Of a stretch of DNA of 35,307 bases, positions 16,378 through 26,458 are shown one piece after another. Location: assembly GCA_025361335.1 (NCBI GenBank), contig JANYAK010000023.1, forward strand, positions 1 through 35,307. The letters run 5' to 3'. This stretch comes from Coriobacteriia bacterium (lineage in GTDB: Bacteria; Actinomycetota; Coriobacteriia; Anaerosomatales; PALSA-660). The notes beneath the pieces are model-generated. The model saw nothing but the letters and a program-made list of their open reading frames with translations, searched no databases and was not told where the DNA came from. Position numbers and translations under genes: made by a program. Each line of letters opens with the position of its first letter. Within the stretch, counting starts at the first letter, position 1.

Positions 16378-17217
16378 TCAGCCTCGTTCGCGCTCCAGCA
16401 GCTCCCGCTTGCGTTCCACGCCCCACCGGTAGCCGGTGAGGCTGCCGTCAGCGCCGATGACGCGATGGCAGGGGATGGCCAGCGCGATCGGGTTCGCGCC
16501 GCACGCGGCCGCGACGGCCCGCGCCGCGGTCGGGCGGCCGATGCGACGCGCCAGCTGGGAATAGGTGATCGTCTCGCCGCCCGGCACGTCGCGCAGGGCC
16601 GACCACACGAGTTGCTGAAAGGCGGTGCCCCGCACGTCCAGCGGCAGGCCGGTCACGCCACCGGGATGCTCCGCCAGCGAGACCACCGTCTCGATCCATG
16701 CGCGCCGCGTCGCGTCCGCGGGCCGAAGATCGGCACGGGGGAATCGCCGTTCGACCTGTGCGAGCAGGTCGGCGTCGCTCGAGCCGAAGGCGATCATACT
16801 GACGCCGCGCTCGGTCATCGCGACGACGAGCCGTCCCAGCGTCGTGTCCGCGAGCGCGTAGTTCATCACCTCACCGGGCGCCCCTCGCCGATACGCGGCG
16901 GGTGTCATGCCGAGCAGCTGGCTGGTCCGCTCGTAGACGCGACTGGTCGAGCCGAAGCCCGCGCCGTGGATGGCGTCGGCGATCGGCATACCCGCCGCGA
17001 GCGTGTCTCGCAGGCGAGTCGAGCGTCGAGCGCCGGCGTACTCTCGCGGAGTGAGGCCGGTCGTAGCGACGAACGCGCGGCGCAGGGTCGACTCGCTCAC
17101 ATGGACGGAGCGAGCGAGGTCAGCGACAGGCGGCGCACGCAGTCCGGAATCGACGGCATCATCGATCGCCCGGGCCACGGCCGCGATGTCCAGGTCGCGC
17201 TGCGTGTCGGTGTCCAT
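16378..17217 (-). CDS. Ada-like protein: AraC HTH plus methylguanine-DNA methyltransferase, without the zinc sensor domain
   Basis: The 279-residue protein has an AraC-type helix-turn-helix region (about residues 25-112, with VSESTLRRAF and GFGSTSRVYERTSQLLGMTPAAYR). A C-terminal O6-alkylguanine-DNA alkyltransferase domain follows (about 118-275). The active-site Cys250 is in the intact PCHRV motif. It directly removes alkyl groups from guanine. The N-terminal Ada domain that carries the zinc-bound methyl-accepting cysteine in E. coli Ada is absent, so phosphotriester sensing is unlikely. There is no ribosome site before the ATG, but TACACT lies six bases upstream, suggesting a leaderless transcript. 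Confidence 0.9.
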   Translation of the reverse strand: MDTDTQRDLDIAAVARAIDDAVDSGLRAPPVADLARSVHVSESTLRRAFVATTGLTPREYAGARRSTRLRDTLAAGMPIADAIHGAGFGSTSRVYERTSQLLGMTPAAYRRGAPGEVMNYALADTTLGRLVVAMTERGVSMIAFGSSDADLLAQVERRFPRADLRPADATRRAWIETVVSLAEHPGGVTGLPLDVRGTAFQQLVWSALRDVPGGETITYSQLARRIGRPTAARAVAAACGANPIALAIPCHRVIGADGSLTGYRWGVERKRELLERERG

Positions 17218-17488: not shown

Positions 17489-18637
17489 ATGGGCGCAGTG
17501 ATCCTACATGACGACGCGATGATCGACCCGCGTTCACCCGTGGACTCCATCGACGTCTCGGTCATACTGCCGGCGTACAACGAGGTCGACAGCGTCGACG
17601 GGGTCTACGAGCAGGTCACGTCAGTCCTCGCCACGCGCGACTACGAGTACGAGATCATCTTCGTGGACGACGGCTCGACCGACGGGACGTGGGACAAGAT
17701 CGTCGGTCTGGCGAGGCGCGACTCACGGGTCAGAGCCCTGAGGCACCGGCGCAACTTCGGTAAGGCGAGCGCGTTGGCGAACGGGTTCACCTACGCGCGC
17801 GGCGAGATCGTCGTCACGTCCGATGCGGACATGCAATACGACCCGAACGACATCCTGCGGCTCGTCGACAAGATCCTCGAGGGCTTCGATGTGGTGTCGG
17901 CGTACAAGGTGGTACGACGCGACCCCTTGAGCAAGCGCCTCCCATCGAAGTTCTTCAACTTCTTCGTCCGCACCACCACCGGCGTGGATCTGCACGACAT
18001 GAACGCGGGCCTGAAGGCGTTTCGGCACGACGCGGCTCAGGAGCTCATCCGATACGGGTACGGCGAGCTGCATCGCTTCTTCGTCGTGCTGGTAGCGCGG
18101 CGCGGCTTCACGGTCGCCGAAGTGCCGGTCGAGAGCCTGTACCGCACGTCCGGGCGATCCAAGTACGGCGTGGAGCGCTACATGCGGGGCGCTCTCGACT
18201 ACCTGACGGTGTTCTTCCTCTCGGGATACGCGGAGCGTCCCCTGCACCTGCTGGGCGCCATCGGGGTGTGGCTCTCGCTCGCGGGGACCGCCCTCTTCGT
18301 GTGGCTGTTCGCCATGTCGGTGACAGGATCAGGCATCATGCACGACAGCCCGTTCTTCGGTGTGTCGGAACTGCTCGTGATCACCGGGGTCCAGATGATC
18401 ATCTCCGGGCTGATCGCGGAGATGATCAACAACCTGGAGCGTCCCACGATGGGGCGCGCCAAGATCGCGCAGACCGTCCGGATCGAGCGACGCCACTCGC
18501 CCCTGGGGTCGGACCGCGTCGAGGTCGAACGGCGTGAGCGCGATAGTGACGCGCGGTCGCTGGGGGTCGAGACCGGAGCGGGCGCGGCGATCCGCGTTCA
18601 CCCGCACCCTCAGGCCCCGGGATCCGACGGAGCGTAG
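17489..18637 (+). CDS. GT2 glycosyltransferase, polyprenyl-phosphate sugar transferase type
   Basis: This 382-residue protein has a GT-A catalytic domain (about residues 22-235) with SVILPAYNE (24-32), FVDDGS (58-63) and the metal-binding DAD at 112-114. Two membrane helices follow, at about 252-278 and 290-312, then a charged tail. This layout matches DPM1/ArnC/GtrB-like enzymes, which transfer a sugar from a nucleotide donor to a polyprenyl phosphate at the inner membrane face. The resulting lipid-sugar could feed the GT39-like enzyme at 23583. The start is ATG with GAGAGG five bases upstream. It is the first gene of a three-gene plus-strand operon. Confidence 0.9.
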   Translation: MGAVILHDDAMIDPRSPVDSIDVSVILPAYNEVDSVDGVYEQVTSVLATRDYEYEIIFVDDGSTDGTWDKIVGLARRDSRVRALRHRRNFGKASALANGFTYARGEIVVTSDADMQYDPNDILRLVDKILEGFDVVSAYKVVRRDPLSKRLPSKFFNFFVRTTTGVDLHDMNAGLKAFRHDAAQELIRYGYGELHRFFVVLVARRGFTVAEVPVESLYRTSGRSKYGVERYMRGALDYLTVFFLSGYAERPLHLLGAIGVWLSLAGTALFVWLFAMSVTGSGIMHDSPFFGVSELLVITGVQMIISGLIAEMINNLERPTMGRAKIAQTVRIERRHSPLGSDRVEVERRERDSDARSLGVETGAGAAIRVHPHPQAPGSDGA

Positions 18638-18661
18638 GACACGAGTCGGGCGGAGGCCTCC

Positions 18662-20092
18662 TTGGCGAAGAACGTGGCGCGAGGCTCCCTGCTCGGGATG
18701 ATCGGACAGGGTTGGCAGATGGCTGCCGCCTTCGCACTCTACGCCCTGCTGGCGCGCCACCTGGGGCCGGTCCTGTTCGGGCGTTGGAGGATCGTGCTGT
18801 CCCTGCTCGCCTGGTTCGAGGTGTTCATCACTTCGGCCATGGTGAAGGCGGCGACCAAGGCGATCGGGGAGCGCCCGCGGGATGCGGCCGATCTCTCACG
18901 CGCCGCGTATGTCGGGCAGGCGATCGTGGCGGCCGTCGTCTTCCTGGGTGTCCAGCTGGCCGCGCTCCCGATCGCCCGGCTGCTGTCCAACGCCGCCCTC
19001 GCTCCGCTCATCAGGATCGCCGCTTTGGACATCCCTTCGTTCGCGATGCTCATGATCGCGTCGTCGATCGTGCTCGGCGCCCAGCGATACGAGCGTCAGG
19101 CCGTCGCGTGGATCATCTACGCGAGCGCGAAGGTAGGCCTCATCGCGCTGTTCGTGCTGGCCGGGTTCTCCCTGCCTGGAGCGCTCGTGGGCAACGCGCT
19201 CTCATCGATCGTCGGCTTCGCGGTGATGCAGTCCCGCATGGGTCGCGGCAGCATGCGGCCGGCCCAGCTGGCCCAGCTGGCGCGCGGCCTTCTCTTGGCG
19301 TCGGGGCCCTTCCTCGCGCTCAGCCTGGTCGAGGGCGTCGGCCAGAACGTCGACCTGTGGCTGGTGTCGGGCCTGGTGCCCAGCACCGTCTCGGTCGGGC
19401 TGTATGCGTCTGCGGTGGTGCTGGCTGAGGTCCCCGTGTTCCTGTTCCTCGGACTCGACAGGGTGATCTTCGCGTCGGTGACCAGGGCCCGGGCGGAAGG
19501 CGACTGCGAGGGGGCTGACAGGAACACGACCGCGGCCATCCGCACCGCGGTCATGGTCACGGTCCTGGCGATAGCCGTCGCCGCGTCGGTCGGGAGGCAG
19601 GTCATCGAGCTGGTCTACTCCTCCGCATACGCGGGGGCCGCACTGCCGCTCGTCCTCCTCATGGTCGCCGCCATGGGCCGCACCGTGCAGGCGGCGTGCG
19701 GCGAGGTGCTCATGGCCCAAGGCCGTGGCCGGTCCGCGCTGGGGATACTGGCGGCCACGGTCCTGCTCGAGGTGGGCGCGATCGCCATCCTCACCGTGCG
19801 CTTCGGGCTGGTCGGCGCGGCCGCGGGGACCGGTGTGGGCGCCATCGTCGCCGCGTTGTGGTCGGGCTTCGCGCTGCGCTCCTCCACCGGATGGCGCCCG
19901 GTCGCCACCTTGGGGCGCTCGGTGTGCGCCGCGGCGGTCGTCGGAGGAGGTCTGGCGCTGCTGGCACCGGGCCCGCTGCTTCTGCTGTTCGCCGTGCCGA
20001 TGGCGGCGGTAGCCTATGTCGTGTTCCTCCGCGTCATCGGGGAGTTCAGCGCCCAGGACATCTCCGCGATGCGTGCGTCCGTCGGAAGGTAG
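18662..20092 (+). CDS. Polysaccharide flippase, Wzx/MurJ-like (MOP superfamily)
   Basis: The 476-residue membrane protein has roughly twelve to fourteen helices and little hydrophilic sequence between them, starting MAKNVARGSLLGMIGQGWQM. A central LVEGVGQNVDLWLVSGLVP segment resembles MOP-superfamily polysaccharide exporters. Such proteins flip lipid-linked sugar units or move polysaccharide to the outer face. The start codon appears to be TTG at 18662, with GGAGG five bases upstream; the next in-frame ATG, about 12 codons on, lacks a ribosome site. The gene lies 24 bases after the GT2 gene and three bases before the deacetylase gene, so all three are probably co-transcribed. Confidence 0.88.
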   Translation: MAKNVARGSLLGMIGQGWQMAAAFALYALLARHLGPVLFGRWRIVLSLLAWFEVFITSAMVKAATKAIGERPRDAADLSRAAYVGQAIVAAVVFLGVQLAALPIARLLSNAALAPLIRIAALDIPSFAMLMIASSIVLGAQRYERQAVAWIIYASAKVGLIALFVLAGFSLPGALVGNALSSIVGFAVMQSRMGRGSMRPAQLAQLARGLLLASGPFLALSLVEGVGQNVDLWLVSGLVPSTVSVGLYASAVVLAEVPVFLFLGLDRVIFASVTRARAEGDCEGADRNTTAAIRTAVMVTVLAIAVAASVGRQVIELVYSSAYAGAALPLVLLMVAAMGRTVQAACGEVLMAQGRGRSALGILAATVLLEVGAIAILTVRFGLVGAAAGTGVGAIVAALWSGFALRSSTGWRPVATLGRSVCAAAVVGGGLALLAPGPLLLLFAVPMAAVAYVVFLRVIGEFSAQDISAMRASVGR

Positions 20093-20095
20093 ACC

Positions 20096-20941
20096 ATGCC
20101 GGAGCGCACACAGATGATCATCAACGCCGACGACCTCGCTTGGTCGCGCAGCGTGGATCGGGGGATCATCGAGGCGCATCGCGCCGGGATGGTCACCAGT
20201 GCGAGCCTGCTCGCCACCGGCGCCTCGTTCGATCATGCGGTGTCACTCGCCCAGGCCACGCCGTCGCTCAGCGTGGGCATGCACCTGAGCTTCTACCGCG
20301 GAACGACCATCCTTGCGCCGGAACGCGTGTCCGGGATCACCGGCCCCGACGGTCTTCTGCTGGGATCGTGGACCAGCATCGTCTCGCGGCTTGTCGCGGG
20401 CACGTTCGACCTCGGCCAGCTGGAGGGCGAGCTGCGAGCGCAGGTCGATCGCGCGAGGGAGGCGGGCATCCAGCCGACGCACCTCGACGGAGAGAAGCAC
20501 CTGCACCTGTGGCCGTCGGTGTTCGACATCGTGTGCAGGCTCGCCGTGGAATACGACATCCGCGAGGTCCGGGTCGTGCGCGAAAGGCCGTCTGTGCGGC
20601 CCATCCCGGCCGGATTGACGTGGCTGTCGGCCCGCGCCGCGCGCGTCGCCAAGGGATGCGGGCTGGTCGTGTCGGATGCCACGATCGGCTTGACGGAGGC
20701 AGCGACCGATCTCGCCGCCTTGGCCCGGCTTCTCCGGCGCGCCCGCGCGCCGCACGTCGAGTTCATCGTCCATCCGGGGCGTGTGGACGAGGAGTTCATG
20801 CGCATCCAGAGCGTCCTTCCCAATCGGCTCGTCCACGACCGAGAGGAGGAGCTCGCCGTCCTCACCAGCGCGGAGGCGCGCTGCCTCATCGAGAGCGCGG
20901 GATACGAGCTGGTCGGAAGGGGCGGCTGGGAGCGTCAGTAG
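20096..20941 (+). CDS. YdjC/ChbG-type carbohydrate deacetylase
   Basis: The 281-residue protein belongs to the YdjC family of metal-dependent deacetylases that act on N-acetylated sugars (ChbG on chito-oligosaccharides, HpnK in hopanoid synthesis). The metal-site motifs are visible: NADDLA at 10-15, GMHLS with His63 at 61-65, and THLDGEKHLHLW with His129 at 128-139. The usual NADDFG/NADDLG has Ala in the last place here, a mild change. No signal peptide is seen, so it should act in the cytoplasm, perhaps on lipid-linked precursors before export. Its stop overlaps the convergent synthase-hydrolase gene by seven bases. Confidence 0.85.
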   Translation: MPERTQMIINADDLAWSRSVDRGIIEAHRAGMVTSASLLATGASFDHAVSLAQATPSLSVGMHLSFYRGTTILAPERVSGITGPDGLLLGSWTSIVSRLVAGTFDLGQLEGELRAQVDRAREAGIQPTHLDGEKHLHLWPSVFDIVCRLAVEYDIREVRVVRERPSVRPIPAGLTWLSARAARVAKGCGLVVSDATIGLTEAATDLAALARLLRRARAPHVEFIVHPGRVDEEFMRIQSVLPNRLVHDREEELAVLTSAEARCLIESAGYELVGRGGWERQ

Positions 20942-23586
20942 ATCGGTTGGAACGACGCGAGCAGCTTCCACTGATGCGCGTCGAGCGAGCCCACCCATCG
21001 CGTCAGCTCGGCCGGCGTGGTCCCCACGAAATGGTCGGGCGCGATCGCTGCGCGGAACGCCGCGAGGCTTCTCGGCGACGTGTCGATGCGCCAGTCCTGG
21101 GTGGTCGGGCCGGTCTCCACCGAATCGAAGTAGATGACGGCGTTGACGGAGGGGTCGGCCGCGATCCGTGTGTATGCGTCGGTGATCCAGGCCGCCTTGT
21201 CGCCTCCCTGCTCGACGGATGCGAACTCCGCGATGCAGATGGGCTTGTGGAGCGTCCTCAAGAACGCCAGAGGCTTGGCGTACCAGTGGTCGTACATGCC
21301 CCAGGATGAATACCTGCTGGAGGCGCCCCAGTTGAAGCCGCTGACCGCGACCCAGTCGACGTACGCGTCGCCCGGATAGTAGGCCGCGTATGCGTTGGTC
21401 GCTCGACTGGGGACGCTCTCGTGGTTGATGCTCCAGACCCAGGTGACGTTGGTCGCACCCTCGCTCACGAAGATGTCATGGAGGTGGCGCCACGCCGCGA
21501 CGTACAGCTCCGGTGTGTTCCCGTTCGTGACGCCCGACCATGGGTACCAGTTGCCGTTCATCTCGTGCATCGGCCTCAGCATCACGGGGCCGCCGAGCGC
21601 GCGGATGTCCCGTGCCCAGGAGCGGATGTAGTCGTCGTGCGCTCCCGCGACGATCGTGGCAAGCCCGAACACGGGCTGCTTGCCGGGGTTGCGCACGACG
21701 TTCGAGTTGCCTCCCGGGTCCCAGGGCTCCCACGTGATCATCGGGATCTTCCCGCGGCGCATGACGGCGATCACGGCGGCCGCGTCGAACAGCGAGCGGT
21801 TGGAGCTGGCCCACGGCTGGTACCACATCACGATCGACGCCGGCTTGCCGGCCTTCGCCTCGAACGCGTCGAGCACGGCGGGGTCGAACGGCGCCGGTGG
21901 CACGTAGACGCCGAGGTAGGCGCTGGTGGGCAGGGACGCGACCTTGCTCGCCATCGGCAGTGCCGCGGCAGCAGTCGAGGTCGCGGCTGTTGCGCCCCCG
22001 ACGGCCCCGGCGCCCACAGGCCCCGCCGCCTGCCGCAGGAGCGCGCAGCCCGACGTGCCGGCCAGCACGAGCGCGCACGCGAGCAGCAGAAGAAGCGTAC
22101 TTGCCACGTGTTCCGTGGCATGAAGCGGCTTGTGCGGATGCCATGTGAGTCTCACGAAGCCCAGCAGGACCACGATGTGTGCCGTCGCCCATGCCACGTT
22201 GTTCATGACGGAAGGCACCGCACCGAACGTCGCAAGCCCGTACACGGAGGCGCCGGTGAGAGCCGCGATGGCAAGCATGTGCACGACGACCGGGCGCAGT
22301 GTGGCCCTACCCGCCCTCTTCGGCGTGACGACGAAGCGCGCTGCGCGCCCGAACAGCGTGGAGAAGAGTGCCCGGATCTGCACGGGGAACGCAGCGAGCG
22401 TGAACCAGAGGGAGGCGAAGCTCAGCTGGAAGTCGGATGCGTAGATGATGGTCGCGAGCGCGAAGAGCACGTAGGGCAGGAAGTGGACGGGATAGTCGTT
22501 GGGCACCGACACCGGTCGAAGGCCGCCGATGAGGTAGGCCGTGGGGAGCACGAGGTACGCCAGGTATGCGCATCCCGTGAACCAATACATGAAGCCGAGC
22601 GCGTACTGCGCGGCCTGCGGGACGCTCATCGTGCGGGTGAAGGGACGCCGCTTGAAGAGGATCTCCAGCCCTCCGCGCCCCCATCTGAGCTGCTGGCCGA
22701 AGTAGGACCGTACGTCCAGCGGGCCGAGCCCGTCGGCAAGCACCTTCGCGACGTAGACCGAGGAGAAACCGCGTCGCAGAAGCAGGAGCGACCCGCGCAG
22801 GTCCTCCGTGATCGAGTCTTGGGGCAGCCCCCCGATGGCGTCGACGGCCGAGCGCCTGTATACCACGTTGGTACCGCACGAGAAGACGGCCCGGCAACCG
22901 TCCTTGCCCCGCATGATCGGCCCGTAGAACAGGCCCTGCTGCGCGTGGGCGCCTTCGGCCACGCGGTTCTCGACCCGATTGCGGTAGACCTGGGGCGTCT
23001 GGACGAAGGCGACGTTCAGATCGTCGAACGCCCCCATGGTGGCCTCCAAGAAGTCGGCATGCGGCACCTGATCCGCGTCGAAGATGGCGAAGAAGCGGCC
23101 TCCGGTCATGGCCAGCGCGTGGTTGATGTTGCCCGCCTTCGCGCCGGTCAGGTCCTCCCGCGTGACGTAGCCGGCACCGAGGCGGTCTGCCAGTTGGCGG
23201 ATCTCGGGGCTGTGCCCGTCGTCGAGGACGAACACCCTTGCGCGCGGGTGGCGCATCGCGACGGCGGCCGCGACGGTGCGCTCGACGATGTCGGCCGGTT
23301 CGCCGAGAACAGTGACGAACACGTCCACCGTCTCGTTCGTTTGCGAGAAGTCGGGTGTGCGGGGTTCGCTCCACCGCTGCATCGAGATCGTGTACCAGAA
23401 TCCCGCCGCCTGCGCGACGTTGAACAGTTCCGCGAAGACGAGCAGGAGATAGAGCGCGTGGTTCTCAGGACGGGCGTCGAACAGGAGCCACTTCAGGTAC
23501 AGAGCGGCCAGGACGGTGGAGGCCAGCGACAGGATCCGGCAATTCCGCAGGTAGGCGGCTCGCCGCTGTGGGGGGATCTCGATCAT
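20935..23586 (-). CDS. Cellulose-synthase-like GT2 fused to a GH26 glycoside hydrolase
   Basis: The 883-residue protein carries a processive GT2 synthase followed by a GH26 domain. Two N-terminal helices (about 17-36 and 44-67) precede the GT domain, with DDG (122-124), DAD (170-172), TED (260-262) and QQLRW (298-302), the cellulose/hyaluronan-synthase motif set. Further helices run from about 325 to 480, and one at 496-513 ends in a lipobox-like TSGC (Cys514). The GH26 domain (about 555-850) keeps the acid/base Glu675 in RPMHEMN and nucleophile Glu787 in CIAEF. No PilZ domain is present. Topology puts the hydrolase outside, where it could trim the polymer, perhaps a beta-mannan or beta-glucan. 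The start is ATG at 23586, overlapping the upstream stop (ATGA). Confidence 0.88.
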   Translation of the reverse strand: MIEIPPQRRAAYLRNCRILSLASTVLAALYLKWLLFDARPENHALYLLLVFAELFNVAQAAGFWYTISMQRWSEPRTPDFSQTNETVDVFVTVLGEPADIVERTVAAAVAMRHPRARVFVLDDGHSPEIRQLADRLGAGYVTREDLTGAKAGNINHALAMTGGRFFAIFDADQVPHADFLEATMGAFDDLNVAFVQTPQVYRNRVENRVAEGAHAQQGLFYGPIMRGKDGCRAVFSCGTNVVYRRSAVDAIGGLPQDSITEDLRGSLLLLRRGFSSVYVAKVLADGLGPLDVRSYFGQQLRWGRGGLEILFKRRPFTRTMSVPQAAQYALGFMYWFTGCAYLAYLVLPTAYLIGGLRPVSVPNDYPVHFLPYVLFALATIIYASDFQLSFASLWFTLAAFPVQIRALFSTLFGRAARFVVTPKRAGRATLRPVVVHMLAIAALTGASVYGLATFGAVPSVMNNVAWATAHIVVLLGFVRLTWHPHKPLHATEHVASTLLLLLACALVLAGTSGCALLRQAAGPVGAGAVGGATAATSTAAAALPMASKVASLPTSAYLGVYVPPAPFDPAVLDAFEAKAGKPASIVMWYQPWASSNRSLFDAAAVIAVMRRGKIPMITWEPWDPGGNSNVVRNPGKQPVFGLATIVAGAHDDYIRSWARDIRALGGPVMLRPMHEMNGNWYPWSGVTNGNTPELYVAAWRHLHDIFVSEGATNVTWVWSINHESVPSRATNAYAAYYPGDAYVDWVAVSGFNWGASSRYSSWGMYDHWYAKPLAFLRTLHKPICIAEFASVEQGGDKAAWITDAYTRIAADPSVNAVIYFDSVETGPTTQDWRIDTSPRSLAAFRAAIAPDHFVGTTPAELTRWVGSLDAHQWKLLASFQPIY
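22105..22107 (-). other. Possible internal GTG start for a separate GH26 lipoprotein form
   Basis: This in-frame GTG (Val494 of the fusion protein) would give a 390-residue product starting MASTLLLLLACALVLAGTSG, then Cys. That reads like a lipoprotein signal, though it lacks N-terminal positive charges. Only a weak GGAA precedes it, so the intact fusion is the simpler reading. Confidence 0.25.
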
Positions 23587-25208
23587 GGCCTCACCACCGG
23601 ATTCAGGAAGAACCCGCGCTGTGTGCCGACCTCGTAGAGCGTCACCCGGATCCGTCGGAACTTGCGATCCTGCTTCAGGACGTAGCTCTCGGCAGTCAGC
23701 CATCTCGTGACGAGTGTCCGGTCGAGCGCGATGCGGGGCGTCTCCTGCCACGTGGCGACGACCCAGACGCGGCGGGATATGCCCACTTGGCGGACGAGGT
23801 CCTGCGCCAGTTGCGCGGGACTGTTGCGCGGCCGCCCCTTCGCGCCGTACAGGGGCACCGCCCGGACAGCGGCATATGCATCGGGCGGCAGGTAGTACTC
23901 GGGGATGGAGGTGACGAAGTTGGGCAGCAGCAGGATGGTGTCGCCTTGCTGGTAGCGGGCGGCCACGAGCGCCATCGCCTCTCGGTTTTCCCACTTGACG
24001 ACGCTCGACGGGTCGAACGACTGATCCGTCCAGGCTGCCGCCGCGACCACGACCAGCACCGCCGCCGTGGCCCAACGCGCGGACGTCCGCATCTCGGCGA
24101 CGGCGCGGGCGGCAAGGATGACCACGCAGACACCGACGGCCGTGTAGTAGCGGGCCTCCAGCACGATCGGCTGCCACGAGCCGAGAAGTGTGATGGCGAG
24201 GGCGCCGCCGACACCGCCGGCGATGAGGTATCGCGTCCGCGGCGACACGTGCCGGGCGAACCCCGCGCTCACGAACACGAGCGTGATGAGCAGCGGCCAC
24301 ATCGCGACAAGGTCGCGCGTGATCGCCTCGGAATGGAAGCCGAACAGCGACTCCACGGGCACGAGGATGAGCTGGTTGAAGTGCGCACCGATGACGGGGG
24401 GTTCCCCGCCGTAGTTGAACGCCCCCGTGGCCCCACGAAGGAGCTCGCGATGCGCGATCACCTTCGGGAGCCACCATGCGAGGGGCACCATCGCCACCAG
24501 CAGAGCGCCAACCCAGGCGGCGACTTCTGGAAGCCGCCGCACGGCGCCTAGAGGGGGCGTCGAGCGTGGGCGCGGCTCCCCGGCGGGGTCCTCCGCGTGC
24601 ATGCGTCCGCGCGCGTGGGCGAACAGGACGTAGACGCCTTGTCCGAGGACGAGGAACGCGAAGAAGTACTGAGTCATGAGCCCCGCGCTCGTCGCGAGCG
24701 CGTACAGCACCCACCAACCGAAGCCGCGGCGCCGCAGGCCTTTCCACAACGCACCGGTGCTGAGCAGGGCGAAGACCAGCACCATCGTGTACATGCGCGC
24801 TTCCTGCGCGTACCAGATGAGAAACGGCGAGATCGCGACCATCGCGGCGGCTATGGCACCGACGCGACGGTCGTAGATGTCCCTGGCCACCCAGTACATC
24901 AGCGGGATGGCCACGATGCCCCACACGATGGGGAAGCCCCTTACGGCGACCTCGGACCTGCCGAAGTACACGATCCAGTAATGCAGCAGGGTGTGGAACA
25001 GGGGAGGATGCACGTTGCCGGCCATCTTCTCGAGCATCTGGGCGATGCCCCAGGAGGCTTGGCGCACTGAGGTCGTCTCGTCGAGCCAGAAGCCGCGAGT
25101 GTCGATCGTGGCGATGCGCAGCGCGGCCCCGACGAGGGTGAGGCTCGCGACGATCAAGAAGGCCGCGGCGCGCGAGAGCCCCTCGCCGGTCCTCGGATCG
25201 GGACGCAT
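23583..25208 (-). CDS. GT39-like membrane glycosyltransferase
   Basis: This 541-residue multi-span protein resembles the PMT_2/ArnT-like glycosyltransferases (GT39/GT83), which use polyprenyl-phosphate sugars outside the membrane. After the first helix the loop carries FWLDETTS with Asp43-Glu44, the typical catalytic acidic pair, and then NVHPPLFH (65-72), another family hallmark. About ten or more helices follow, then a soluble C-terminal domain from about residue 425. The ATG at 25206-25208 has a strong GAGGAGGT upstream. Its stop overlaps the start of the synthase-hydrolase gene by four bases, so the two are coupled. The GT2 at 17489 is a plausible donor-lipid maker. Confidence 0.87.
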   Translation of the reverse strand: MRPDPRTGEGLSRAAAFLIVASLTLVGAALRIATIDTRGFWLDETTSVRQASWGIAQMLEKMAGNVHPPLFHTLLHYWIVYFGRSEVAVRGFPIVWGIVAIPLMYWVARDIYDRRVGAIAAAMVAISPFLIWYAQEARMYTMVLVFALLSTGALWKGLRRRGFGWWVLYALATSAGLMTQYFFAFLVLGQGVYVLFAHARGRMHAEDPAGEPRPRSTPPLGAVRRLPEVAAWVGALLVAMVPLAWWLPKVIAHRELLRGATGAFNYGGEPPVIGAHFNQLILVPVESLFGFHSEAITRDLVAMWPLLITLVFVSAGFARHVSPRTRYLIAGGVGGALAITLLGSWQPIVLEARYYTAVGVCVVILAARAVAEMRTSARWATAAVLVVVAAAAWTDQSFDPSSVVKWENREAMALVAARYQQGDTILLLPNFVTSIPEYYLPPDAYAAVRAVPLYGAKGRPRNSPAQLAQDLVRQVGISRRVWVVATWQETPRIALDRTLVTRWLTAESYVLKQDRKFRRIRVTLYEVGTQRGFFLNPVVRP

Positions 25209-25385
25209 CGTACCTCCTCGGGGTGTACGGGCCGACCTTGGGCGGGCGCGGCCCCGGGGCATCGCCCGCAGCATTAGGTACCCGTTATGCCGCAGCCCCC
25301 GAAGCCGGACGCGCGGTCGCAGCCCCGTCGCCGACGATCGGGGGACGATCGCGAAGGGGGTCAAGAGCCCCGCCGCACCCGCCGA

Positions 25386-25391
25386 TATAAG
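25386..25391 (+). promoter_or_regulatory. Possible -10 element (TATAAG) for the secreted GH26 gene
   Basis: TATAAG lies 50 bases before the TTG start at 25442 in an otherwise GC-rich 233-base divergent gap. No -35 matches at standard spacing. I see nothing else clear in the gap. Confidence 0.35.
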
Positions 25392-25441
25392 AAACGCTGA
25401 ATCGTGCTATTCGTCGGGCTGGGTGCAGAAGGGCGGACGTC

Positions 25442-26458
25442 TTGAAGAGAGTGGTGGCATTGCTCGCAAGCGTGGCCCTCATGTTCGGCACCGTGTTGAC
25501 CCCCGTCCAAGCGGTCTCGGCCCGGTCCTCGTCGACCGCCCGCCATCGCTCTCCGGCTCCGACCCCCGCCCCGCCCCCCATCCCGACCCCCGCCCCGTCG
25601 GCCGGCCGCTGGATCGGCTTCTACCAGTCCGAGGCGGGAACCACCTTCAGCGCTGCGCTGCTGACTTCGCGCGAATCCCTGGTCGCCAAGCATCCCGCTG
25701 TGGTCAACTTCTACCTCTCGGATTCCTCGAGCTTCCCGCTGTCGCGCGTCCAGATCATCCGCGACCACGGTTCGACGCCGATGGTCACTCTGGAGTTCTG
25801 GTCCACGCAGAAGGGCGGCGTCGCGTCGATCACCAACGGCGCCAAGGATTCTTACCTCGCCGGTTTCGCCGATGCCGCGAAGGCGTATGGCGGCGAGGTG
25901 TGGCTGAGGCCCTTCCACGAGATGAACAGCAACTGGTACCCGTGGGCGGGAGCGAGCGCAGGCAACACGCCGGCGCAGGTCGTGGCAGCCTGGAACCACG
26001 TGCGACAGATCTTCGCGTCGCGCGGCGCCACCAACGTCAAGTTCGTCTGGTGCGTCAACAACGACAGCGTCCCGAACACCACGGGCAACGCCATCGGGGC
26101 GTACTGGCCCGGCGATGGCAACGTCGACCTGCTCGCCATCGACGGCTACAACTTCGGGACGTCGCAGTCGTGGTCGGCCTGGCGCGGCTTCCGCAACGTC
26201 ATCGGCGCCTCGTACGCGACGGTCACCGCGCTCAGCGCGAAGCCGCTCTTCCTCGCGGAGACCGGTTGCGTCGAGCAGGGCGGCAGCAAGGCCGCCTGGA
26301 TCACCGACATGTTCGCTTCGCTGGGCACCACGTTCCCGCGCATCACGGGTATCGTCTGGTTCAACGTGAACGACACGACCGCGAACACCGATTGGCGCAT
26401 CGACTCGTCCGCAACCAGCCTGACCGCGTTCAACACCGCCGTCGGGAGTCCGTTCTAG
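25442..26458 (+). CDS. Secreted GH26-family glycoside hydrolase
   Basis: The 338-residue protein has a Sec signal peptide (about residues 1-24, MKRVVALLAS then a hydrophobic core, likely cut after PVQA) and a Pro-rich linker (about 38-53). A GH26 domain follows, at about 55-335. The acid/base Glu160 is in RPFHEMN and the nucleophile Glu273 in FLAETG. GH26 enzymes cut beta-mannan, beta-1,3-xylan or mixed-linkage beta-glucan. The domain is clearly related to the GH26 part of the neighbouring synthase fusion (both have NWYPW and GNTP after the acid/base). The TTG start at 25442 is chosen because the signal peptide begins there; the ribosome site is only fair. It diverges from the GT39-like gene. 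Confidence 0.88.
   Translation: MKRVVALLASVALMFGTVLTPVQAVSARSSSTARHRSPAPTPAPPPIPTPAPSAGRWIGFYQSEAGTTFSAALLTSRESLVAKHPAVVNFYLSDSSSFPLSRVQIIRDHGSTPMVTLEFWSTQKGGVASITNGAKDSYLAGFADAAKAYGGEVWLRPFHEMNSNWYPWAGASAGNTPAQVVAAWNHVRQIFASRGATNVKFVWCVNNDSVPNTTGNAIGAYWPGDGNVDLLAIDGYNFGTSQSWSAWRGFRNVIGASYATVTALSAKPLFLAETGCVEQGGSKAAWITDMFASLGTTFPRITGIVWFNVNDTTANTDWRIDSSATSLTAFNTAVGSPF

Follow-up and report, generated by a model that had tools for sequence, protein, structure and literature searches.

In bacterial cellulose operons, a gene for the glycoside hydrolase family 8 (GH8) enzyme BcsZ lies within the operon of the processive family 2 glycosyltransferase (GT2) BcsA, and BcsZ reduces cellulose output in Salmonella (excerpts of PMC5070118; other cited papers are likewise drawn on in excerpt). 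BgsA of Sinorhizobium and Rhizobium etli, which is without a PilZ domain (PMC10374906), and RiGT2 of Romboutsia ilealis are BcsA-like mixed-linkage synthases whose product is the expected substrate of a lichenase. We analyzed a 35,307-nt stretch of a Coriobacteriia genome (contig JANYAK010000023.1, order Anaerosomatales; hereafter "the window"), in which one open reading frame (ORF) encodes a BcsA-type processive GT2 synthase followed, beyond an additional membrane helix, by a GH26 domain. The parts of this fusion and of the locus around it are known families; what is unusual is a design that makes and trims with one chain, how widely this design is spread, and the exchange of deacetylases in the locus.

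The ArnC-ArnD-ArnT scheme of lipid A modification, which together with the family of ArnD is general background here, combines a polyprenyl-phosphate GT2, a deacetylase, and a GT-C glycosyltransferase. In comparable routes, the YdjC-superfamily enzyme NaxD acts as the deacetylase of undecaprenyl-phosphate-GalNAc ahead of its transfer to lipid A (PMC11279074), and lgmA-C are required for glucosamine on Bordetella lipid A (PMC4993483). The window and its relatives hold the same three enzyme kinds in one set; unlike those routes, the acceptor proposed here is a glucan and not lipid A, the flippase is Wzx-like, and the genes stand beside a synthase. BcsAB, BcsZC, and GT-PgaB deacetylase are known fusions in exopolysaccharide operons (PMC7112194); none described in the available text of that paper joins a synthase to a glycoside hydrolase, and GH26 occurs in it 0 times. 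The authors of a 2026 paper on Actinoplanes knew of no characterized Wzx/Wzy cluster containing a GH26 enzyme (PMC13390465). Our literature searches, with partial coverage and most subscription papers outside it, found no account of a GT2-GH26 synthase-hydrolase.

The synthase half of the fusion found cellulose synthases as its best sequence matches (E. coli BcsA, 4e-48). In comparison of predicted models with solved structures, it matched BcsA with Z 35.8 over 463 residues at 2.1 Å. The signature of processive BcsA-type GT2 enzymes (D, D, TED, QxxRW, and the FxVTxK gating loop) was present in the window synthase and its clade, and the set D, DD, DAD, TED, QxxRW, and F-VT-K was kept across all 8 rows of this clade. 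The QQMRW of a Bipolaricaulota member (L026) was taken from the alignment, the automatic pattern scan having hit another spot; one row (window:20938-22100) was out of frame and was excluded from the motif scan. The cut-off of CelA model TIGR03030 was not reached (245.2 vs 699.1 bits). No PilZ domain appeared in the Pfam scan of the fusion, and the 6 unfused clade members have only 68-92 residues after the gating motif. BcsB (PF03170) was found in none of the 8 genomes carrying the gene set, with control genomes positive. The locus thus resembles BcsA/BcsZ in its processive GT2, which shares the motifs and fold of BcsA, and in having a hydrolase gene within a synthase operon, and differs in being without PilZ and BcsB, in that its hydrolase is GH26, fused or membrane-anchored, and in its added GT-C and deacetylase genes.

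Membership in the BgsA group was considered and dropped on three grounds. The window synthase was not sister to BgsA on a 58-row tree whose references were R. etli bgsA and a Sinorhizobium homologue adjoining HlyD. No HlyD-like BgsB partner was found among the 8 window proteins scanned. At the position of BcsA Glu299, as placed by our own alignment, the window has Gly, in contrast to BcsA (Glu) and BgsA (Arg); this residue is held to matter for linkage (PMC6821405).

A profile of 16 GH26 sequences gave CtLic26A, the GH26 domain of Endoglucanase H, 284 bits and every other solved GH26, including mannanases and β-1,3-xylanases, 63 bits or less. The predicted GH26 half matched CtLic26A with Z 36.8 at 1.3 Å over 269 residues (41% identity); the other GH26 structures listed had Z ≤26.4 and 16-21% identity, with mannanases at ≤26.1. 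Whole-protein scores of the two GH26 proteins against the Pfam family were 54.2 and 34.8 bits (gathering threshold 20.2). Residues E675 and E787 were invariant in 16/16 GH26 sequences, and we take them to be the catalytic glutamates of the GH26 half. Because this half is lichenase-like, a β-1,4/1,3-glucan is likelier than a mannan, and the mannan reading was dropped; the hint at mannose in an earlier, sequence-only reading of this DNA is therefore doubtful. Unlike CtLic26A, the window domain is attached to a synthase, along with a membrane helix, and belongs to a set of genes for making a glycan.

The AlphaFold2 model of the fusion, made with 38 input sequences from the study loci, had a mean pLDDT of 91 and a disordered linker at residues 506-539. 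The hydrophobic helix between the domains (Table 1) would place the GH26 half outside the cell, because the chain is presumed to be inside after the sixth helix, as in BcsA. In relatives with separate genes, the GH26 begins with a hydrophobic stretch, and a lipobox was present in 5/6; the fusion therefore has the appearance of a synthase that has merged with a lipoprotein GH26. A second, secreted GH26 is encoded divergently in the window. On a tree made by a quick method (excluding duplicates L024 and L025, hits ≤80 bits, and short hits), synthase-adjacent and divergent secreted GH26 formed separate groups, each with several families of the order. Two GH26 enzymes of distinct function thus seem to be maintained in the locus, one apparently at the membrane and the other free.

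Pairing of related synthases with GH26 was not confined to the order. A single scan across species genomes supplied the 80 loci of the sample, with a synthase match threshold of >100 bits (L labels denote loci from public genomes; G labels denote genomes of the order, n = 61). GH26 lay within 1 kb in 27/70 public-genome loci with a synthase match, a share that favors pairs because the query held both domains. The phylum spread is less affected by this bias: synthase-GH26 neighbors occurred in Actinomycetota, Bipolaricaulota, Nitrospirota, Thermodesulfobacteriota, and records labeled Deltaproteobacteria, i.e., at least four phyla. A further tally, 48/296, is a lower bound, with at most three candidates scored in most genomes. 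For the synthase tree, 81 rows (>100 bits) were reduced to 58 by dropping 23 near-copies, including L024, a duplicate of the G008 locus; L109 was left unlabeled. The GH26-neighbor label requires at least 4 changes on this tree, with 2 changes forced by well-supported branches, and 0/500 shuffles gave a number as low. Thus, related synthases either acquired GH26 on several occasions or lost it in intervening lineages. A single ORF spanned both domains in 5/21 loci inspected, namely G003 and four further contigs of actinobacteria; the window brings the number of such proteins to six.

Several of these loci have features of their own. In Acidimicrobiales, L067:8440-12472 (also L069 and L084) repeats the window layout, with a synthase-fused GH26 and a second, divergent GH26. 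Synthase-GH26 pairs of Gram-negative bacteria had TPR, SPOR, or BcsS-like partners, as in export of cellulose-like polymers; synthases at L037:9899-12067 and L046:9683-11905 carry C-terminal SPOR or Cds6_C (NTF2-like) domains, and a BcsS-like gene follows in L046. GH26 genes come immediately after the synthase gene in Nitrospirota and deltaproteobacteria (L027:11708-12580, L062:9899-10783, L080:11434-12303, L046:11895-12800, L037:12057-12995). At L085:5490-7463, on the + strand, GH26 is joined to RTX calcium-binding repeats close to a synthase gene. A related synthase group of Microbacteriaceae, examined at L030:9803-14230 (+ strand), has HlyD and GH81 genes in place of GH26, possibly a β-1,3-glucan set with its own hydrolase. 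GH81 is a β-1,3-glucanase family, which again puts a synthase beside a glucanase.

Within the order, strong synthase matches were found in 7/61 genomes (G000, G003, G008, G010, G012, G030, and G036) from five families, and the GT-C gene occurred in exactly those seven. The probability of such agreement by chance is 2e-9, relatedness being ignored. In the window's own family, 6 of 8 genomes had neither gene, including a same-genus genome (G001) whose contig, in an empty-site comparison, ends beside the flanking SulP gene. Homologous gene sets were present in six other genomes of the order and in Bipolaricaulota contig L026, giving 8 sets with the window and making a chance arrangement unlikely; gene finding used a simple codon-usage script. 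Of the named genomes that carry this set, Actinobacteria bacterium HGW-Actinobacteria-7 (G008; NCBI phylum Actinomycetota) is the nearest. The GT-C gene adjoined the synthase in 8/8 sets, with a 4-bp overlap in 7; in G008 it is present as two overlapping frames (L104:10761-12388), either a real split or a frame error. The flippase was found in 7/8 sets, and the ArnC-like GT2 lay inside the locus in 6/8; at E ≤1e-60, this GT2 occurred in 7/61 genomes, namely six of the seven synthase carriers and G002.

The deacetylase was present in all 8 sets in two unrelated forms. YdjC, found in only 2/61 genomes of the order, serves in the window and G008, and PF01522 stands in for it in G030, G012, G003, G036, G010, and L026; TFDD and two His residues were invariant in the five PF01522 sequences aligned. 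The exchange of two unrelated families within one gene set argues that the pathway always requires deacetylation. What stays constant is GT-C, synthase, GH26, and a deacetylase. The sequence-only reading had asked whether its six genes stay together in related genomes: the neighborhood is conserved, but the six-gene block was dropped as a conserved unit in view of the rarity of YdjC.

The remaining genes suggest how the polymer could be decorated. ArnC and GtrB were the nearest solved matches of the ArnC-like GT2 (Table 1), which with its C-terminal membrane helices has the features of a polyprenyl-phosphate GT2. It scored 144.4 bits against the NCBIfam ArnC equivalog, below the cut-off of 529, and the ArnT equivalog cut-off was also missed. 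The GT-C profile and the flippase had no match among PDB sequences. A Wzx/Wzy system was considered and dropped: there was no Wzy polymerase among the 8 window proteins scanned, and no search was made elsewhere in the genome. A hexosamine-decorated glucan is proposed because enzyme kinds of the Arn and NaxD routes stand beside a glucan synthase.

We therefore propose that the locus makes a synthase-dependent β-glucan; the chain would be trimmed where it leaves the channel and would receive a deacetylated sugar from a lipid carrier. We give this reading roughly an even chance. The sugar, the linkage, the sidedness, the glucan as GT-C acceptor, and all activities are what we infer here from computed gene order, domains, motifs, predicted folds, hydropathy, co-occurrence, and recurrent pairing and fusion. 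The GT2 half of the fusion would polymerize a UDP-sugar, most likely UDP-glucose, and extrude the chain through its own membrane channel, working like BcsA but without PilZ and BcsB. The extra helix would hold the GH26 half outside at the channel exit, where cutting of the nascent chain could set its length, free it, or bring about transglycosylation. With a GH26 half of lichenase type, the chain should hold β-1,4 and probably some β-1,3 links. The ArnC/GtrB-like GT2 would load a sugar onto polyprenyl phosphate, the deacetylase would strip the acetyl group from it, and the Wzx-like protein would flip the deacetylated lipid-linked sugar. The GT-C enzyme, whose translation is coupled to that of the synthase, would transfer this sugar to the outgoing glucan; this choice of acceptor is the weakest step of the proposal. 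The separate secreted GH26 may remodel or release the finished polymer.

Several observations weigh against this proposal. The window synthase is not a sister of BgsA and has Gly at position 299, as described above. Five paired GH26 of Gram-negative bacteria, those listed above, were checked and have no signal peptide, which does not fit trimming outside; having no membrane segment either, they may act in the cytosol. G003 is without a close ArnC-like gene, no flippase was seen in the 20 kb of the G012 locus, and the parts in G010 are split over two contigs. The GT-C model (mean pLDDT 71.9) matched Pmt4 (Z 25.5), oligosaccharyltransferase (Z 24.2), and ArnT (Z 23.8), i.e., protein and lipid glycosylators equally. 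The six PF01522-type sets contain additional genes of GT2/GT4 or FemAB-like kinds, and an oligosaccharide may therefore be what the lipid carries; no such GT4/GT2 extra genes were seen in the two YdjC-type sets.

The last two points suit a somewhat unlikely alternative in which two systems share one locus: a plain glucan would be made and trimmed by the fusion, and the ArnC-like GT2, deacetylase, flippase, and GT-C enzyme would glycosylate proteins or another envelope polymer. The arrangement of the genes as two convergent groups agrees with such a division. It is opposed by the translational coupling of GT-C to the synthase in 7/8 sets and by the confinement of both genes to the same 7/61 genomes.

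Less probable again is that the fusion is a frame error or local accident of a draft genome and that the synthase and a lipoprotein GH26 are normally two proteins of the same pathway, in which case this organism would not have the one-chain design. The two are separate genes in clade members G008, G012, G030, G036, and L026, and the G008 frames overlap by one base step, so that a small indel would fuse them. However, G003, of the same family, has one open frame for both domains with a different linker, four other actinobacterial contigs are also fused, and the window frame is open throughout with coding-like codon use.

We regard a β-mannan or glucomannan product, with the GH26 halves as mannanases, as improbable. 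Most characterized GH26 enzymes are mannanases (PMC13390465), but the profile and fold scores given above place this GH26 with CtLic26A, and the synthase is nearest to cellulose synthases. That the GH26 genes serve feeding on external β-glucan beside a coincidental synthase is very improbable: CtLic26A belongs to a plant-glucan-degrading enzyme, but GH26-synthase pairing and fusion recur in several lineages, and neither a sugar transporter nor a further glucanase was among the 8 window proteins scanned.

Table 1. Features of the synthase-GH26 locus (positions in the window; aa, amino acids; AF2, AlphaFold2).
Feature	Positions	Strand	Evidence
Polyprenyl-phosphate GT2 (ArnC/GtrB-like)	17489..18637	+	PF00535 3e-33; ArnC 6e-38, GtrB 4e-27; two C-terminal membrane helices
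Wzx-like flippase	18662..20092	+	TTG start; PF01943 1.4e-15; 11 hydrophobic segments
YdjC-type deacetylase	20096..20941	+	PF04794 1.8e-55; ChbG structure 7e-24; no membrane segment
Synthase-hydrolase fusion, 883 aa from ATG	20935..23586	-	PF13641 2e-23 and PF02156 2e-14 in a single chain
BcsA-type GT2 catalytic part of fusion, aa ~86-430	22297..23331	-	QQLRW and FVVTPK gating loop
Extra membrane helix separating fusion domains, aa 498-516	22039..22095	-	Hydropathy 2.34; AF2 helix 492-520
GH26 domain of fusion, CtLic26A-like, aa 555-851	21034..21924	-	Profile and fold; E675, E787
Putative GT-C (GT39/PMT_2-like) lipid-linked sugar transferase	23583..25364	-	PF13231 8e-14; fold; ATGA overlap with fusion
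Secreted GH26 paralogue, divergent	25442..26458	+	PF02156 1.5e-8; N-terminal hydrophobic segment; own clade

The Pfam scan covered 8 window proteins, and each of the six locus genes exceeded a cut-off. The six ORFs of the sequence-only reading were all recovered, as were its 7-bp tail-to-tail overlap of the YdjC and fusion genes (20935-20941) and its secreted GH26 gene running divergently from the GT39-like gene. Its assignments of the first gene to polyprenyl-phosphate GT2 enzymes and of the GT39-like protein to lipid-donor-using enzymes agree with the structural matches, and an exopolysaccharide or envelope glycan locus is supported. That reading was therefore right in outline, apart from mannose and the six-gene unit. 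The 4-bp overlap between the GT-C stop and the fusion start is ATGA; the true start of the GT-C gene may lie further inside its ORF. By Pfam, the locus is flanked by a pyridoxal phosphate-dependent enzyme gene and an Ada-like gene (16378-17217, - strand) with AraC-type helix-turn-helix and O6-methylguanine-DNA methyltransferase domains. The source genome, a 1.8-Mb draft in 61 contigs, has GH26 at three places; the third, on a separate contig (C30; L111:8907-10328, + strand), has a C-terminal DUF5648 domain, with a GT4 gene and a glucose/sorbosone dehydrogenase-like gene nearby.

Many exopolysaccharide operons carry a hydrolase for their own polymer, and the reason for a cell to build and cut one and the same chain is an open question. 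A single polypeptide fixes both the ratio and the location of synthase and hydrolase, which makes this question testable. More broadly, and only tentatively, glycan machines in which a BcsA-type synthase brings along a lichenase-type GH26 editor, either fused to it or anchored where the channel opens, may form a class that is widespread but unstudied. In the lineage of the window, a co-translated GT-C enzyme would add a cationic hexosamine via an Arn-like lipid route, and CtLic26A-type lichenases would be editors of bacterial glucans by origin, the plant-degrading enzyme being one later use. If the product is confirmed, lichenase-type GH26 would gain a likely natural role, and mixed-linkage or related β-glucans would be expected in further bacterial phyla.

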